This document shows, in pieces, positions 389 to 10,034 of a stretch of 12,634 nt of DNA. Every line of letters starts with the position of its first letter. The stretch's first letter is position 1. The stretch spans positions 1 to 12,634 of the forward strand of contig DPLS01000173.1 of NCBI GenBank assembly GCA_003541875.1, written 5' to 3'. Both the position numbers and the translations under genes were made by a program. The notes beneath the pieces are model-generated. The model did no database searches, was not told the DNA's origin, and worked only from the letters and a program-made list of their open reading frames with translations. The stretch is from Bacteroidota bacterium (GTDB lineage: Bacteria > Bacteroidota > Ignavibacteria > UBA10030 > UBA6906).

Positions 389-658
389 ATGCGCCAGATC
401 CTCGTTGTCCTGTTCCTCGCCATCTCTCCTTTCATCTTCCCGAAGACAATTTCATTCTACATTCCTGGTTTATCATTCGTCATTCTGAAGGTGTTTGATG
501 TATTGGGCAGAGAAGTCACAACTCTGGTGAATGAGGAGATGAGGGCGGGAAAGTATGAGCGGGCGTTCGATGCTGGTGGGCTGGCGAGCGGAGTGTACTT
601 CTATCGTCTCCGTTCAGGGGAATTTGTACAGACAAAGAAGTTACTCTTACTATGTTAG
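389..658 (+). CDS. Vestigial T9SS cargo: signal peptide joined directly to a C-terminal sorting domain
   Basis: This 89-residue product starts at an ATG with a strong AGGAGG Shine-Dalgarno at 378-383. Residues 1-18 are a basic N-terminus plus a hydrophobic stretch (ILVVLFLAI), resembling a signal peptide. From about residue 13 to the end it aligns with the sorting domain of the next gene: SPFIFPKTISFYIPG lies gaplessly over NPFNPSTTISFTIPH, then LKVFDVLGREVTTLVNEEM, LASGVYFYRL and KKLLLLC. There is no room for a passenger domain, and the first sorting-domain strand merges with the signal peptide. At DNA level, 485-541 matches 1444-1500 at 49 of 57 positions. The likely explanation is an internally deleted cargo gene that still has its translation signals, but a deliberately small secreted peptide cannot be excluded. 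The terminal residue is Cys where its two relatives here have Arg or Lys. It sits 23 nt upstream of the next gene. Confidence 0.6.
   Translation: MRQILVVLFLAISPFIFPKTISFYIPGLSFVILKVFDVLGREVTTLVNEEMRAGKYERAFDAGGLASGVYFYRLRSGEFVQTKKLLLLC
485..541 (+). repeat. Sorting-domain DNA repeat, copy 1 (also at 1444-1500 and 7109-7165)
   Basis: The 57 bp encoding LKVFDVLGREV and the following TLVNEE core recur three times in the window on the same strand. By eye, copy 1 and copy 2 (1444-1500) agree at 49 of 57 positions, ending in 18 identical bases. Copy 1 and copy 3 (7109-7165) agree at about 45 of 57 and share their first 18 bases. They are paralogous coding repeats and could support homologous recombination between cargo genes. 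Confidence 0.7.
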
Positions 659-3493: not shown

Positions 3494-6400
3494 ATGAAAC
3501 GATGTGCCACTCTGATTGTTCCACTTGCTCTCAGCTTCTCAATCGTTGCCGCCGGATCTCAAAACAAATCTGTCGGCACCAGAACTACGACTTCTATCAT
3601 CGATGGAAAAGTTGTGCAGAAAACCGAAACCGTTGCAGAGCCAAACCCTCTCCCTCCTGCTGACAACTTTCTCGAACAGGAAAAGAGCAAGCCGATTCCA
3701 AATTCGGGCGCGTTCAATTCATCGATTCGTTGGCAGAGCACGGATGCTGCTGCGATAGGCCAAGACATTGCCGTGAATGCCAATGGCACGAACGCGTTCA
3801 TCGGCTGGAACTTGAACAACCTGCGTACGTCGTTCCACGACAACAACTCTGGAACTCCAATTTGGGAGCACACATCCGATCCACAAACATATCGGAACTA
3901 TGTGTCGCTCTCGGCAGATGCAAACCTTGTCGCCAACGCAACCTATCACAACATCTATCTGTTCGACAAAAGCTCGGGCGCCATCACATTCAATTTCAAC
4001 GTGCCTGATTCGCGCATTGCAGGGCCAATAGCTGTCTCCCGCGACGGGCACCTACTCGCGTGTGCGTGCACCTCTCCACTTTCGGGCGGAACGCACAGAG
4101 TCTACGCGTTCAATCCACCGTCCACAACACCAATCTGGACGTTCGACTTCAGCGATGCTCAAAGCTCAGGAGTGTATGGGATCGACATCAGCATCGACAG
4201 ATCGACCGTTGCCGTAAATGGAAAGTTCTACGGATGGATACTCAACGCTACCGACGGCACGGTAAGAACACAAATGGAAATCGCAAACACCGAGTCCCGC
4301 ATCGCGCTAAGCGCTGACGCCTCGGTGCTGGCTATAGCTGAACTGAGTGGCTTTGTGAAGGCGTATGCCTATAACACGGCACAAAGCAGGTACGATCTTC
4401 TGTGGCTTTACAGGATCCCACCGGGAGTGTCCACGAACTGGGCAAGTTCTGTGGAGGTATCGGCAGATGGCTTGACAATCATGGCAGGCAGCTTGGTGTT
4501 CCTTTCCGCCGGCTACGATGGAAGCGTATACATGTTCGATACGTTCGGAGAAGGCGTTCCGCTCTGGGTGATGAACAATCTCGGTGACGAGGTGGGTATG
4601 GTTGGCCTTTCGGATGATGGCTCTCTCGGTGCGGCTGCCACCTGGGGCGACATCAACAACCCGGCAAAACCAACCATCTTGATATTCGAACGGAACTCAA
4701 ATAGCCCGGTCTATTCAGTGTCATCGCCCGGCTCCATGTTCTCGCTGGCGATGTCGGCGGATGGAAAATCCGTGGTAGCTGGAGGCAAGCATGTCCACGC
4801 AAGGACCTTCGGTAGTGGCGGAGACGCCTATTACATCGGTGTTGATATGGATGGAGGAGCAATCGCCGGAACTGTAACTCTCGGAGGTGTGCCACCGAAT
4901 CATAGCGGAACAACCGTGCAGGTGCTTGGAACAAACAAGAGAGCTTCGACTCTGCCAAACGGACAATACGTCGTCGCAAATATTTCGCCTGGAACGTACT
5001 CCGTTCGGATTTCACACCTTGGGTACGTAGGCACAACACTGAGCAGTGTGGTAGTTGCCGGAACTGATACAACGCGAAACGTGAACGCGACGCTCCAACA
5101 AACCGGGGCCGCACCCACAAATCTTGTTGCGTCTCACAGTCTGAGCTCGCGCATCCAGCTTAACTGGACAAATCCAACGCTATTTGACGATCGGGCCTTC
5201 GATCGGATCAGGGCGGTCGATGATATCAAAGAAGCTTCAGTGCCAACCATCAGTGCCAGGAACTCGGAGCGTCGGGGAGAACAGTCACTGCTCCTCCGCT
5301 CAACTTCGCCCCAAGGCATCTCCGACCTGCTGCCTCCTGATAGCATCAAGATCTACCGGGCGATTCGCACTGGCGGTCCCTACTACCATAAGCGAACCCT
5401 TGCAGGAACTCAGTCATCCTACGTTGACAGCAGCGCAATGCCGCTCAAGAGCTACTACTACCGCGTCACAGCCATCTATGGCAATGGTGAGAGCGAGTAC
5501 TCCAACGAAGCGTACGGCACGGTGGACAGTTCGTTCCTGCAATTTGCTTTCACTACTCCCCACAAAACAACAACGCCGACGATCGATGGCACACTCTCCC
5601 CGGGTGAATGGGCAGATGCGATACAAGTGGACGTCTCGGATGTCTTCGGATACGGAGGCGGTGTACGTCTTCCTCGCAGCAGCACGTTCATGTATTTCAA
5701 GTATGACAGCGTCGCCAAGAAACTCTATATCGCCGGGGAAGACTTTCTGAACAACGATGGCCTGGCGGAAAGTGAAGGGTTCGGACTGTACTTCGATGAT
5801 AATCATAACCGGCAGTTCGAGCCGATTGGGACAGACTCGTTGCTGCGTGAGGGTAACTACTGGGCGTACTACTTCAGTGTTGGTTCTAATGTCAGGTTCC
5901 GTGAGATTTATACTGGAGGCGGAGTCAACGCAATTGTCGACGTGGTGACAGATGCCCAAGTTGCGTTTTCCAGCGCAACCGGACATGTCACTGGAGAGGT
6001 GAGTATACCCATCAGTTTCTTCAATAAGAACCACCTCCAGGTGTTCGCACCGAACAGAACTGTTGGTGCCGGACTCTTCATGATAGGTCGCAACGCGGGG
6101 GCGGCCGTTTTCCATGGCTGGTGGCCCCAAACGATGATCAGTGTGTTTACCCCAAACGGGTTTGGAGATGTGACTATTCCTATTCGGCTGCTTGCACCAC
6201 CAAAAGCACCTGCAAACATCGCAGTGACACGGCAAGGCAATCGTCTGAGAATCACCTGGACTGATCCGACACAAGGAATCAACAACGACCCCCTTACGGT
6301 TCCTATTACACTCGAACTGTGGCGGAATGGATCTCCGTGGCGCACGTTCCCAAGCGGCGCCCAGGCGTGGACGGACTCCAACATCGTGGCACAGGGATGG

Positions 6401-7282
6401 TACGAGTACAAGATAAGAGGATCCATCAATGTGACGAGTTCACCGAACACAACCTTTTTTGGACCATTCTCTCCGACAGTGGGCACTTTCGCAGTCAGCG
6501 ATCCGCAGCTGACGGAGTTGATCTATGATGATGGACAGCCTGATCCCCCACCCTGGATTGTCAGCAACACCTATGACGGGAACATGTTCGGGACACGTTT
6601 CACTCCACAACAGTACCCGGCGAAAGTGTGTCGCGTGAAGGCTTTCACAAACGTCAGCAATTCACCGATACAGATCTATATTTACAGTGACAGCTCAGGG
6701 ATACCCGGTCACCCCATTGCCGGGCCCTGGAGCGGAACAACCTATCAAACCGCAGGTGTCGATAGCTTCCTCGTGACGATTCCTGGAACCGAGCCGCCGA
6801 CGATCACGAGCGGAGATTTCCATGTCGTACTCGCGTATCTGCCCACCAGCCCGACCGCGCCAGGCATCTATGCCGACGTCACACAACCGCTTCTGGGGAG
6901 GAGTATGTTCTTCACGAATACTCTTAACTGGACACTCATGCCCGGGGGAGTCGATCTCATGGTGCGCGCATTCATCACCGGGCAACCTTCCGCAGTTGGT
7001 GATGAGAAAGGACTTCCTAAAGAGTTTGCGTTGTCGCAGAACTACCCGAACCCTTTCAACCCCGCGACGAACGTCAGCTATCAATTGGCAGCGCGGAGCC
7101 AGGTATCACTGAAGGTGTTTGATGTACTGGGTCGAGAGGTTGCCACATTGGTGAACGAAGAGAAGGAACCGGGCACGTACTCCGCAGTTTGGGATGCACG
7201 GAACGCAGCAAGCGGCGTCTACTTCTACCGCCTCGATGCAGGCAACTTCACGAGCGTGAGAAAGTTGCTGTTGCTCAAGTAG
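3494..7282 (+). CDS. Large modular T9SS-exported protein: beta-propeller, carboxypeptidase-regulatory-like, FnIII, CBM9/DOMON-like, sorting domain
   Basis: The protein has 1262 residues. The start at 3494 is supported by AAGGAG at 3482-3487 and a signal peptide (residues 1-20, MKRCATLIVPLALSFSIVAA). Residues 90-435 contain eight repeats of an LSADG-xx-(V/L)-A type turn, beginning near residues 93, 138, 180, 231, 271, 321, 371 and 419 and spaced 40-51 apart, as in a WD40/PQQ-like propeller. Residues 454-537 form a carboxypeptidase-regulatory-like beta-sandwich (IAGTVTLGG...LPNGQYVVANISPGTYSVRI). Residues 539-677 are FnIII-like (YYYRVTAIYGNGESEYSN), with an insertion near 562-615. Residues 694-897 resemble CBM9/DOMON (PTIDGTLSPGEW...GFGLYFDD). 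Residues 903-1000 are a second FnIII-like unit, 1006-1161 an unassigned probable beta-sandwich, and 1176-1262 the T9SS type A sorting domain (NYPNPFNPATNVSY...RKLLLLK). By inference it is a secreted or surface-attached carbohydrate-binding or adhesive protein. I see no catalytic residues. Confidence 0.88.
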   Translation: MKRCATLIVPLALSFSIVAAGSQNKSVGTRTTTSIIDGKVVQKTETVAEPNPLPPADNFLEQEKSKPIPNSGAFNSSIRWQSTDAAAIGQDIAVNANGTNAFIGWNLNNLRTSFHDNNSGTPIWEHTSDPQTYRNYVSLSADANLVANATYHNIYLFDKSSGAITFNFNVPDSRIAGPIAVSRDGHLLACACTSPLSGGTHRVYAFNPPSTTPIWTFDFSDAQSSGVYGIDISIDRSTVAVNGKFYGWILNATDGTVRTQMEIANTESRIALSADASVLAIAELSGFVKAYAYNTAQSRYDLLWLYRIPPGVSTNWASSVEVSADGLTIMAGSLVFLSAGYDGSVYMFDTFGEGVPLWVMNNLGDEVGMVGLSDDGSLGAAATWGDINNPAKPTILIFERNSNSPVYSVSSPGSMFSLAMSADGKSVVAGGKHVHARTFGSGGDAYYIGVDMDGGAIAGTVTLGGVPPNHSGTTVQVLGTNKRASTLPNGQYVVANISPGTYSVRISHLGYVGTTLSSVVVAGTDTTRNVNATLQQTGAAPTNLVASHSLSSRIQLNWTNPTLFDDRAFDRIRAVDDIKEASVPTISARNSERRGEQSLLLRSTSPQGISDLLPPDSIKIYRAIRTGGPYYHKRTLAGTQSSYVDSSAMPLKSYYYRVTAIYGNGESEYSNEAYGTVDSSFLQFAFTTPHKTTTPTIDGTLSPGEWADAIQVDVSDVFGYGGGVRLPRSSTFMYFKYDSVAKKLYIAGEDFLNNDGLAESEGFGLYFDDNHNRQFEPIGTDSLLREGNYWAYYFSVGSNVRFREIYTGGGVNAIVDVVTDAQVAFSSATGHVTGEVSIPISFFNKNHLQVFAPNRTVGAGLFMIGRNAGAAVFHGWWPQTMISVFTPNGFGDVTIPIRLLAPPKAPANIAVTRQGNRLRITWTDPTQGINNDPLTVPITLELWRNGSPWRTFPSGAQAWTDSNIVAQGWYEYKIRGSINVTSSPNTTFFGPFSPTVGTFAVSDPQLTELIYDDGQPDPPPWIVSNTYDGNMFGTRFTPQQYPAKVCRVKAFTNVSNSPIQIYIYSDSSGIPGHPIAGPWSGTTYQTAGVDSFLVTIPGTEPPTITSGDFHVVLAYLPTSPTAPGIYADVTQPLLGRSMFFTNTLNWTLMPGGVDLMVRAFITGQPSAVGDEKGLPKEFALSQNYPNPFNPATNVSYQLAARSQVSLKVFDVLGREVATLVNEEKEPGTYSAVWDARNAASGVYFYRLDAGNFTSVRKLLLLK

Positions 7283-8118: not shown

Positions 8119-8146
8119 TTGAATTTTCCATTGATTGGGTTATATT
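8119..8146 (+). promoter_or_regulatory. Candidate promoter of the deoC-SPOR-SPOR operon
   Basis: TTGAAT at 8119-8124 and TATATT at 8141-8146 are 16 bp apart. The predicted start near 8153 would leave a leader of only about 20 nt before the ATG at 8173. That short leader has no clear Shine-Dalgarno. The rest of the gap 7949-8118 shows no convincing gene. Confidence 0.45.
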
Positions 8147-8172: not shown

Positions 8173-9054
8173 ATGAACCGAGAAATCATAGACCGCATTA
8201 TCAACGAAATCCTACAGGAGAAACTCAAGGGAAAAGACGGCCACATTTGCTGCAAAGACGGCGTCTGCTCCGACAACCTCTGCGTGGTCCATAACAAGGA
8301 GGGTGTTCGCAACATTGTCGGCAACGGGGCTACGCGCATTACGGCAAGCGTTGGCATCGAAGCCGCCGGTGGCGTCGAATCCGACCTCGCTGGGATGATC
8401 GACCACACCCTCCTGAAGCCCGATGCGAGCAAGTCGGAGATCGAGAAACTCTGCGGTGAAGCCAAGAAGTACGGCTTTGCCAGTGTGTGTATCAACCCGA
8501 GCTACGTTCCGCTCTGCGCAAAACTTCTGAAGGGAACGGATGTAAAAGTATGTACCGTCATCGGCTTTCCGCTTGGTGCAACTTCAACGGCCTCCAAAGC
8601 ATTCGAGACCGAGCAAGCTATCAGAGAGGGCGCGCAAGAAGTGGACATGGTAATGAATGTGGGAATGCTCAAGTCCGGCGAATATGATTATGTTGAACAC
8701 GATATCTTCGCTGTGGTGAGCACTGCCCGGCGCTACCGGGTTCTCAGCAAAGTGATACTGGAGACAGGATTCCTCACCGATGAGGAGAAGATCAAGGCGT
8801 GCGTGCTTGCGAAGCGCGCAGGCGCCGATTTCGTGAAGACCTCAACTGGTTTTGGCAAAGGCGGAGCAACGATGGGCGATATCGCTTTGATGAGAAAAGT
8901 CGTGGGAAGTACAATGGGCGTGAAAGCCTCGGGCGGGGTCCGAAGTCGCGAGGATGCGCTTGCCATGGTCGCATCAGGGGCGGACAGAATCGGTGCAAGC
9001 GCCAGCGTGAAGATTGTGAGTGGGGAGACAGCGGAAGCAACGAAAGGATATTGA
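8173..9054 (+). CDS. deoC: Deoxyribose-phosphate aldolase with N-terminal extension resembling a microcompartment encapsulation peptide
   Basis: The protein has 293 residues. Residues 73-290 are a complete class I DERA TIM barrel, starting at [12 protein letters not shown]. The key residues are present: D158 in EVDMV, Schiff-base K222 in DFVKTSTGF and K251 in GVKASGGVR, with the phosphate loop [10 protein letters not shown] near 269-278. DERA reversibly cleaves 2-deoxyribose 5-phosphate to glyceraldehyde 3-phosphate and acetaldehyde. The usual bacterial enzyme is about 210-260 residues and begins near residue 70 here. The extra N-terminus has three parts: an amphipathic helix at 1-20 (I5, I6, I9, I10, I13, L14 and L18 on one face), a cysteine cluster (C26, C27, C32, C37), and a segment at 45-61 resembling the phosphate loop. 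Helices of this type target enzymes into bacterial microcompartments, and extended DERAs are known from some of those loci. The start at 8173 lacks a Shine-Dalgarno; ATG 8395 would give a conventional short enzyme, but it also lacks one. The GTG of the next gene abuts the stop. Confidence 0.9.
9043..9048 (+). promoter_or_regulatory. Shine-Dalgarno inside the end of deoC for the first SPOR lipoprotein
   Basis: AAAGGA lies 6 nt before GTG 9055, within the last codons of deoC. It supports a start that directly abuts the deoC stop (TGA then GTG), implying coupled translation. Confidence 0.6.
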
Positions 9055-9519
9055 GTGCATCGGTTTTCTCCATATACTCTAATGCTATTTTTTGGCGCCT
9101 TCTGTGCCGGATGCGGGAGCTCGACCGACACTCAGGAAACGCAAACACTCCCACCTCCCCCACCTATTGTGAAGCAAACCCCGCCGAAGATGGAATTCGA
9201 GACGAAGACTGACACCGTTGCAATGGAGAAATCGCAACGTGATTCGGTTGGCGCCCGTCAATCCCGCGGGGTGCAGGTCAAGTACATGGTGCAGATTGGA
9301 GCGTTCAAGGATCCTCACTACGCAAGCGACGTGCAGAGCATCGCGAGAGAGCGATATCACATGCCCGCTCTGAACGACTACAACACGGGATTGGCTCTTT
9401 ACCAGATTCGGATCGGGTTCTTCGAAACACGAGAAGACGCGTATGCGTTCCGGAAAAGAATGCTGCAAGAGCACCCCGGTGACTACAAGGATGCATGGGT
9501 CGTTCAGCTCAAAAGGTGA
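9055..9519 (+). CDS. SPOR-domain lipoprotein
   Basis: The protein has 154 residues from GTG 9055; an in-frame ATG at 9082 would leave a very short signal. Residues 1-19 are a lipoprotein signal ending FCAGC, with C20 as the lipidation site and an unusual Cys at -3. A Pro/Thr-rich linker covers about 21-70 (TLPPPPPIVKQTPPK). Residues 75-154 are a SPOR domain, starting VKYMVQIGAF and ending DAWVVQLKR, with the usual alternating strand-helix pattern. SPOR domains (PF05036) bind glycan strands lacking stem peptides and typically concentrate proteins at the division septum. The domain reaches the last residues of the protein, as is usual. The gene is the middle cistron between deoC and a second SPOR lipoprotein, with 0 and 2 nt gaps, so co-transcription is very likely. 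Membership of the SPOR family is strong; a role in division is inferred from the family. Confidence 0.85.
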   Translation: MHRFSPYTLMLFFGAFCAGCGSSTDTQETQTLPPPPPIVKQTPPKMEFETKTDTVAMEKSQRDSVGARQSRGVQVKYMVQIGAFKDPHYASDVQSIARERYHMPALNDYNTGLALYQIRIGFFETREDAYAFRKRMLQEHPGDYKDAWVVQLKR

Positions 9520-9521
9520 TC

Positions 9522-10034
9522 ATGGGAAAGCTGCTCCTGGCACTCGGCATAGTCTCGCTGACGAGTTGCGCTGCGACGAAGGAGTCGGAAGATGACTCTC
9601 AGAAACGCGACGTCCTCAAACAGTATGAGGCCACATTTCGCCCTTCGGACTACGATCAGCCCCTAAAGGATTTCTTCCCCGAGATCAAGAATCCGACCAG
9701 CAAAGATACCACTGCCGGTTCAATCAGTCTTAACCCGCAAGCTCTCGAACTCACACAAGGATACCGTGTCCAGATATTCGCAACAACGAACCATGATGAA
9801 GCTGAACAAATGAAGGCAACTGCGGAAACGCAGTTTCCCGAAGAGTGGTTCTACGTGGTGTACGATGCGCCGACCTACAAACTGCGCGCTGGGAACTTCC
9901 TGGAAAGATATGAAGCGGATCGCTTTGGCAAGTCGCTCGCCGAAAAGGGGTACAGAGACGCGTGGGTTGTGCCAGAAAAGGTGTTCAAAAACGCCCCCCC
10001 GCGCCCCCCGCAAGCACCTGATCAGCAGAAGTAA
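9522..10034 (+). CDS. Second SPOR-domain lipoprotein
   Basis: The protein has 170 residues from ATG 9522. An earlier in-frame ATG at 9495 is less likely because the one at 9522 is preceded by AAAAGGTGAT, which overlaps the upstream stop, and directly opens a signal peptide with lipobox LTSC (lipidated C16). Residues 17-75 are a charged linker that includes QPLKDFFPEI. Residues 79-154 are a SPOR domain (GYRVQIFATTNHDEAEQM ... YKLRAGNFLERYEAD ... GYRDAWVVPEKV). The tail at 155-170 is Pro-rich and is encoded by two long C runs near 9993-10009. Similarity to the upstream SPOR protein is domain-level, with matching DAWVV ends, suggesting a duplicated or paired function at the envelope. Its stop lies 2 bp from the stop of the convergent Ig-like lipoprotein gene. 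Confidence 0.85.
   Translation: MGKLLLALGIVSLTSCAATKESEDDSQKRDVLKQYEATFRPSDYDQPLKDFFPEIKNPTSKDTTAGSISLNPQALELTQGYRVQIFATTNHDEAEQMKATAETQFPEEWFYVVYDAPTYKLRAGNFLERYEADRFGKSLAEKGYRDAWVVPEKVFKNAPPRPPQAPDQQK

Follow-up and report, generated by a model that had tools for sequence, protein, structure and literature searches.

A deoxyribose-phosphate aldolase of an Ignavibacteria genome with a very probable address tag for an organelle with a protein shell and scattered genes

The aldolase gene and its surroundings

The window, i.e. the whole stretch of DNA that was analysed (12,634 nucleotides), carries on its plus strand a gene (8173..9054, stop codon included) for DeoC, a class I deoxyribose-phosphate aldolase (DERA) with an N-terminal extension of 70 residues, as recognised from the open reading frame and from the TIGR00126 and PF01791 models. 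The product has 293 amino acids; TIGR00126 matched its residues 72-282 with 290 bits, the curated cut-off being 117. The catalytic TIM barrel comprises residues 70-275 (8380..8997, plus strand), in which KTSTGF, K193 and K222 are invariant, and the two lysines are presumably the catalytic pair of DERA. Since the best-matching DERA chains of the PDB align with the protein only from about residue 71, some 70 residues of DeoC are extra as compared with the solved structures.

Position 8173 is the first start codon of the open frame, and a Met was found at the matching place in 35 of the 38 aligned orthologues, the other three having another codon there (the script used for this comparison chose, in each orthologue, the ATG lying closest to where it was expected). 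An alternative start at 8395 was rejected because the invariant residues of the extension, described below, would be cut off, thus translation from 8173, as assumed in the preliminary description, was retained. A promoter-like site was tentatively assigned upstream of the start (8119..8146, plus strand; TTGAAT-16-TATATT, 9/12 matches), three such sites having been found in the region against 1.0 expected.

The two SPOR genes noticed earlier next to the aldolase lie downstream of it (9055-9519 and 9495-10034) and were confirmed by PF05036 matches. Beyond them a Big_5 protein and a YceG-family protein on the minus strand are encoded. When the window was read for shell genes none was seen, in agreement with the preliminary description; four are present elsewhere in the same genome. 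Three other proteins of the window (389-658, 652-1617 and 3494-7282) have a common C-terminal domain with the motif FDVLGREV.TLVNEE, which resembles a Por/type IX secretion sorting domain.

Helix, linker and cysteine module of the extension

DERA proteins were searched for in 60 genomes, the own genome of the window and 59 relatives of the same order. The extension, with the start at 8173, was present in 40 of the 60 genomes and was read residue by residue in all 40. Its residues 1-18 (8173..8226, plus strand) form an amphipathic helix, a predicted encapsulation peptide, to judge from conservation in the aligned aldolases and from structure prediction. The helix alignment contained 38 of the 40 extended aldolases; G023 and G028, which have a shorter helix, were excluded, and a shift of one residue was applied to four sequences. 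All 38 aligned orthologues have hydrophobic residues at positions 6, 9, 10, 13 and 14; at any other position from 2 to 17 at most nine of them do. The hydrophobic face proposed earlier thus stands for these five positions, but not for I5 (hydrophobic in 9/38) and L18 (17/38). The mean helical moment of the 38-row alignment was reached by 7 of 5000 column permutations. In the case of the single DeoC helix, 3640 of 20000 of its own shuffles reached the moment for residues 3-17 and 8521 of 20000 for residues 1-18. Since the shuffles were equally good, the amphipathicity of the single sequence was rejected as evidence for a tag, and the helix is regarded as significant because its pattern is conserved across the orthologues, not because one sequence is amphipathic.

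The AlphaFold2 prediction from 26 sequences gave a weak helix at residues 3-17 and no confident structure from 17 to 67. With 85 sequences the helix covered residues 3-18 (mean pLDDT 79 for residues 1-10 and 61 for 11-20), the barrel was mostly above 90, and residues 19-26 as well as the stretch 57-68 were of low confidence. Residues 19-26 (8227..8250, plus strand; pLDDT below 50) are a linker, the length of which varies among the orthologues. The flexible linker that had been described between helix and barrel can be recognised in these two low-confidence segments; residues 27-55, however, are a conserved small module predicted with modest confidence, with short strand and helix elements and a block pLDDT of 49-63. 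The preliminary description was therefore right in the helix but overlooked a conserved cysteine module between linker and barrel, on account of which the reading of the whole extension as a helix with a plain linker was rejected.

The cysteine module proper (residues 27-51; 8251..8325, plus strand) is followed by a GAxR pre-barrel motif (residues 52-55; 8326..8337, plus strand). C27, C32, D34, C37, H40 and N41 of the module and G52, A53 and R55 of the motif were invariant in 21 aligned DeoC N-termini, the spacing in the window DeoC being C-x4-C-x4-C-x2-H. Wider homologues, 77 long enough aldolases among the best 80 of at least 97 named loci from many phyla, had GAx[RG] ahead of the barrel in 75 cases, and in 51 the pre-barrel part contained three cysteines or more. 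By eye, the cysteine spacing is ferredoxin-like in some homologues, and the Melioribacteraceae have fewer cysteines. The module is missing in the shell-less relatives G002, G052 and G058. Our guess is that it could be a metal or iron-sulfur site. The pre-barrel GAxR also resembles the C-terminal GAxRIG loop of the barrel itself (residues 269-274; loop present in 63 of the 77 homologues), a likeness which may possibly be a mimic of the phosphate site and possibly chance.

Further N-terminal tags were searched for with a degenerate DNA pattern in five genomes. The pattern recovered the aldolase in all five and gave 49 matches, 30 of which were translated, against 17 in the backwards-read control. 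The other recurrent match (four loci, with an HExGH peptidase-like motif) was judged unlikely to be cargo; its reading frame continues upstream of the Met.

Shell and partner genes in the genome and its relatives

The own genome (2.65 Mb in 439 contigs) is 67.55% complete, so absences there mean little. BMC shell domains and a tagged aldehyde dehydrogenase, the partners that a microcompartment cargo was expected to have, were both found in it: two BMC-H genes on contig C386, two BMC-P genes on C407 and a CoA-acylating AldDH on C114, which scored 640 bits with TIGR02518, the model of acetylating acetaldehyde dehydrogenase (cut-off 620). The C-terminal extension of the AldDH appears to close with a helix-like stretch that contains EDVDRI. 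The moment of this last helix of the tail was reached by 543 of 20000 shuffles, and a second candidate helix of the tail was no better than chance (7740 of 20000). AldDH tails were recovered at 29 of 33 loci, a strict tail pattern matching 20 and a second, upstream pattern 18, with some loci ending at contig edges.

C424 encodes an RpiB that is longer at its N-terminus by about 75 residues. Among the ten genomes of the 60 examined for it, extended RpiB was present in seven of the eight shell-positive ones, including the own genome, and in neither of the two shell-negative ones (G024, G058); the shell-positive G012 has only a plain RpiB. This extension may signal encapsulation, and RpiB would then be a part of the organelle. 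The gene comes after an RlpA-like lipoprotein gene. In relatives a similar-looking gene follows the rpoD-like gene beside the BMC-P pair, hence C407 may lie next to C424 in the own genome. PduL (PF06130), which had also been expected, was not found in the incomplete own genome; it was present in 8 and missing in 52 of the 60 genomes, and a PduL-bearing organelle is not favoured as the host of the aldolase in the own genome. The window (C127), the BMC-H, BMC-P, AldDH and RpiB genes thus lie on five different contigs. The suggestion that the aldolase is a satellite cargo gene came close to this picture, but no main locus to which it could be a satellite was found.

The layout was read in stretches of the own genome, G009, G022, G030 and G041 and in one of G012. 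In the stretches read, the aldolase adjoins the SPOR genes and the third BMC-P adjoins a gene of the phosphomannomutase family (PGM_PMM). The other neighbours were recognised from their sequences and are presumably yfhO-like or ybbR/pdxJ-like genes in the case of the BMC-H pair, an rpoD-like sigma gene in the case of the BMC-P pair, and dprA- and rpoN-like genes, also found with the third BMC-P. Three BMC-P genes are present in most shell-positive relatives and two in the incomplete own genome. In the near-complete G022 (10 contigs) BMC-H lies at 16 kb, a PduS-like gene and BMC-T at 392-394 kb and RpiB at 1301 kb of contig C7, AldDH at 149 kb and the BMC-P pair at 162 kb of C6, and the aldolase at 208 kb and the third BMC-P at 225 kb of C4. 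The parts are likewise apart in the near-complete G009.

A double-domain BMC-T and an RnfC/PduS-like gene (at least 59% identity) share a contig in 25 of 25 genomes that have this BMC-T among the matches listed, as counted by hand with a few partial genes included. In G016 a fragment of a PduS-like gene lies at the end of a contig, and no BMC-T is among the matches listed; in G003, G013, G038 and G049 more distant BMC-T/PduS-like pairs are found in other shell clusters, and neither gene was seen in the own genome and several other shell-positive genomes. At four loci (G007:C172, G011:C45, G014:C25 and G016:C174) three BMC-P genes are clustered with PduL and a second AldDH, which is 29-31% identical to the first; in G007, G011 and G016 BMC-H is close by. 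These clusters may be intermediates between the scattered and the clustered organisation.

In 59 of the 60 genomes the extended aldolase and the AldDH agreed, being either present together or absent together. An AldDH orthologue (at least 67% identity; at least three are fragments) occurred in 40/40 genomes with the extended aldolase versus 1/20 others (Fisher p 1e-14), a PF00936 match in 40/40 versus 4/20 (p 3e-11) and BMC-P genes in 39/40 versus 3/20 (p 5e-11). Eight of the 20 negatives were read at the N-terminus and twelve were called from the search table alone. None of 20000 within-family permutations reached the observed concordance for AldDH, PF00936 or BMC-P, a control that does not fully remove relatedness. 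Contrasts were found also within genera. In g22, G030 has the shell, the AldDH and the full extension, and G052 and G058 have neither shell nor AldDH and their extensions are degraded remnants; in g33, G055 has all the parts and G043 none. As for the individual exceptions, G053 has shell and AldDH and no DERA match, G040 has the aldolase and AldDH with one PF00936 fragment and no BMC-P, and G002, without shell genes, has kept an encapsulation-peptide-like helix on its aldolase while the cysteine module is gone. G003, G038 and G049, with their other shell clusters, have no extended aldolase.

When the N-terminal alignment was used as a query, at least 97 relatives were found, of which the best 80 were used; the listed matches nearest to the extension come from MAGs labelled Bacteroidetes, Ignavibacteria and Kryptonia. 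Among these best 80, 51 matches reach residue 9 or earlier and 29 cover only the later part of the extension, so that in the latter the helix itself was not matched. Linkage was assessed within 8 kb (E up to 1e-6) with HMMs built from shell and AldDH genes of the related genomes. Shell genes were found at 46 of the 80 loci, BMC-H, BMC-P and AldDH together at 35, an RpiB match (plain or extended) at 52, and shell genes with RpiB at 38. By title, 23 of the 46 shell-linked loci are Chloroflexi and the rest Calditrichota, Aminicenantes, Acidimicrobiia, Woeseiaceae, Bacillota and others. Most ignavibacterial loci belong to the 34 at which no shell gene lay within 8 kb, as expected for a scattered gene set, and some of the 34 are on short contigs. 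When 35 AldDHs were scored, the 15 closest to the own enzyme reached 616-643 bits and the other 20 reached 33-237 bits; the 15 belong to Chloroflexi loci and one Bacteroidetes-labelled locus, and mostly have a similar helix-like C-terminal end.

Proposed function and comparison with known microcompartments

The proposal that the N-terminal amphipathic helix is an encapsulation peptide is supported by the pattern conserved in 38/38 orthologues, the shell genes in the own genome and the co-occurrence, and it is very probable that the aldolase is addressed by this helix to an organelle with a protein shell, the genes of which are scattered in the same genome. The other possibility raised earlier, an exapted enzyme, has become less likely, since extension and shell go together across the genomes and two shell-less relatives have the extension only in degraded form, even if the helix persists in G002. 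We consider it likely that the tagged aldolase is taken up as cargo by a dispersed deoxyribose-phosphate metabolosome, which would be SPU-like in its chemistry and FRAG-like in its layout. The genes themselves, the conserved extension, the co-occurrence, the degraded extensions of two shell-less relatives and the linkage in other phyla support this; encapsulation, substrate, direction of flux and the role of the cysteine module are what we infer. In such an organelle the helix (residues 1-18) would gather the aldolase with the other cargo and the shell, the tagged acetylating acetaldehyde dehydrogenase encoded elsewhere would turn acetaldehyde into acetyl-CoA, and the shell would retain the toxic acetaldehyde. 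The extended RpiB isomerase is predicted to be the third part.

DERA is a reversible enzyme, so the aldolase could also be cargo of the shell in another pathway, catalysing condensation or acting on a different aldehyde and not taking part in the breakdown of deoxyribose. The lack of PduL in most genomes would fit such a pathway, and the published SPU assignment is itself a prediction (PMC8217296). We regard this as improbable, since the AldDH exceeds the cut-off for acetylating acetaldehyde dehydrogenase, i.e. the user of the cleavage product of DERA, and the extended RpiB is present as well. It is very unlikely that the extension is a regulatory or oligomerisation module, for example a metal-binding one built on the cysteines, with the helix being incidental. 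The cysteine module is indeed conserved more strongly than the linker, and in G002 the helix was kept without any shell gene; but the helix pattern is fixed in all 38 aligned orthologues, G052 and G058 have neither the helix nor the shell, the homologues with such a helix adjoin shell genes, and the partner AldDH has a similar sequence at its opposite end. That the protein is an ordinary cytosolic DERA, the scattered shell genes belonging to an unrelated organelle and the co-occurrence reflecting shared ancestry, can hardly be maintained: the shell genes and the aldolase do lie on different contigs beside apparent housekeeping genes and relatedness inflates the counts, but the within-family permutations, the contrasts within g22 and g33 and the shell genes that directly adjoin extended aldolases in other phyla all speak against it.

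Within the reading of the aldolase as tagged metabolosome cargo, a bolder version can be formulated, which we hold to be doubtful as a whole: the FRAG organelles of the order would be SPU deoxyribose-burners split into single genes at fixed housekeeping addresses, and the cysteine module would bind zinc or an iron-sulfur cluster and switch or position the aldolase according to the redox state of the lumen. If the metabolosome reading is true, scattered microcompartments without assigned function would have their first likely job, the burning of the sugar of DNA. It would also suggest that an entire organelle can be passed on in the form of individual genes, with no operon to hold them together, and searches for gene clusters would miss such organelles. 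The natural loss series, in which the shell was lost and the extension degraded, offers a ready-made test of the purpose of the tag.

Encapsulation peptides such as those of PduP and PduD are defined as terminal amphipathic helices of about 18 residues with a linker (PMC12339742), and a terminal helix and linker are found also in DeoC. The length of 15-20 residues at an enzyme terminus agrees with the 38/38 pattern and the predicted helix 3-18, and the poorly conserved flexible linker with residues 19-26, after which the conserved module comes. Unlike tags of the PduP/PduD type, DeoC has this cysteine module between linker and enzyme. The resemblance of the DeoC helix to the peptide of PduP presumably extends to details.

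Sutter et al. (2021) describe DeoC and RpiB in all SPU subtypes, propose the breakdown of DNA debris, and place the encapsulation peptide of the type I AldDh at the C-terminus (PMC8217296), where it would be also in the own AldDH. The aldolase examined here is of the DeoC type (pfam01791), BMC-H, BMC-P and AldDH accompany it, and an RpiB-type isomerase (pfam02502) in extended form was found in the own genome and in six of the seven other shell-positive genomes examined. The closest likeness is to the Anaerolineae loci, which we call SPU6-like because Sutter et al. place SPU6 in this class (PMC8217296), a designation made by taxonomic class. At these loci the DeoC has GAxR and a related helix at its N-terminus, often with cysteines between them, and there are also RpiB, BMC-H, BMC-P and an AldDH with a similar C-terminal tail. 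SPU genes, however, stand in one locus, whereas in the own genome, G022 and G009 each part has a separate place; because of this the system was not filed as an SPU locus, though it would work like one. In the HO type of Haliangium ochraceum, which has a main locus, some genomes carry a distant DeoC with an N-terminal extension similar to an encapsulation peptide, as here; the HO AldDh is said there to be nearest to SPU5/SPU7 (PMC8217296), and the own AldDH is nearest to the mainly Anaerolineae group among the 35 enzymes scored, a set without the HO AldDh. The PduL-type phosphotransacylase of the classical metabolosome core was found in 8 of the 60 genomes and not in the incomplete own one.

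The layout resembles FRAG, described in 2021 from shell genes alone, with shell genes in up to six places, a BMC-P triplet and Ignavibacteriae among the hosts (PMC8217296). Axen et al. (2014) noted seven BMC-P genes in Melioribacter roseus, spread over five loci (PMC4207490). In the organisms examined here the shell genes stand at several genomic places without a main locus and the hosts are Ignavibacteriae, a likeness of layout; three BMC-P genes are present in most shell-positive relatives, and two were found in the incomplete own genome. In the open-access literature searched, no paper tying DeoC to FRAG organelles was found; the SPU chemistry and the FRAG layout have each been described, and neither the link between them nor the parts list was found in print. 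FRAG was called enigmatic, an environmental correlate being expected to reveal its function, and FRAG1-7 were listed among the types without an obvious signature enzyme (PMC8217296), whereas here DERA, RpiB and the tagged AldDH are proposed as the contents, so that the tagged aldolase, the tagged acetaldehyde dehydrogenase and the extended RpiB would give FRAG a directly testable function.
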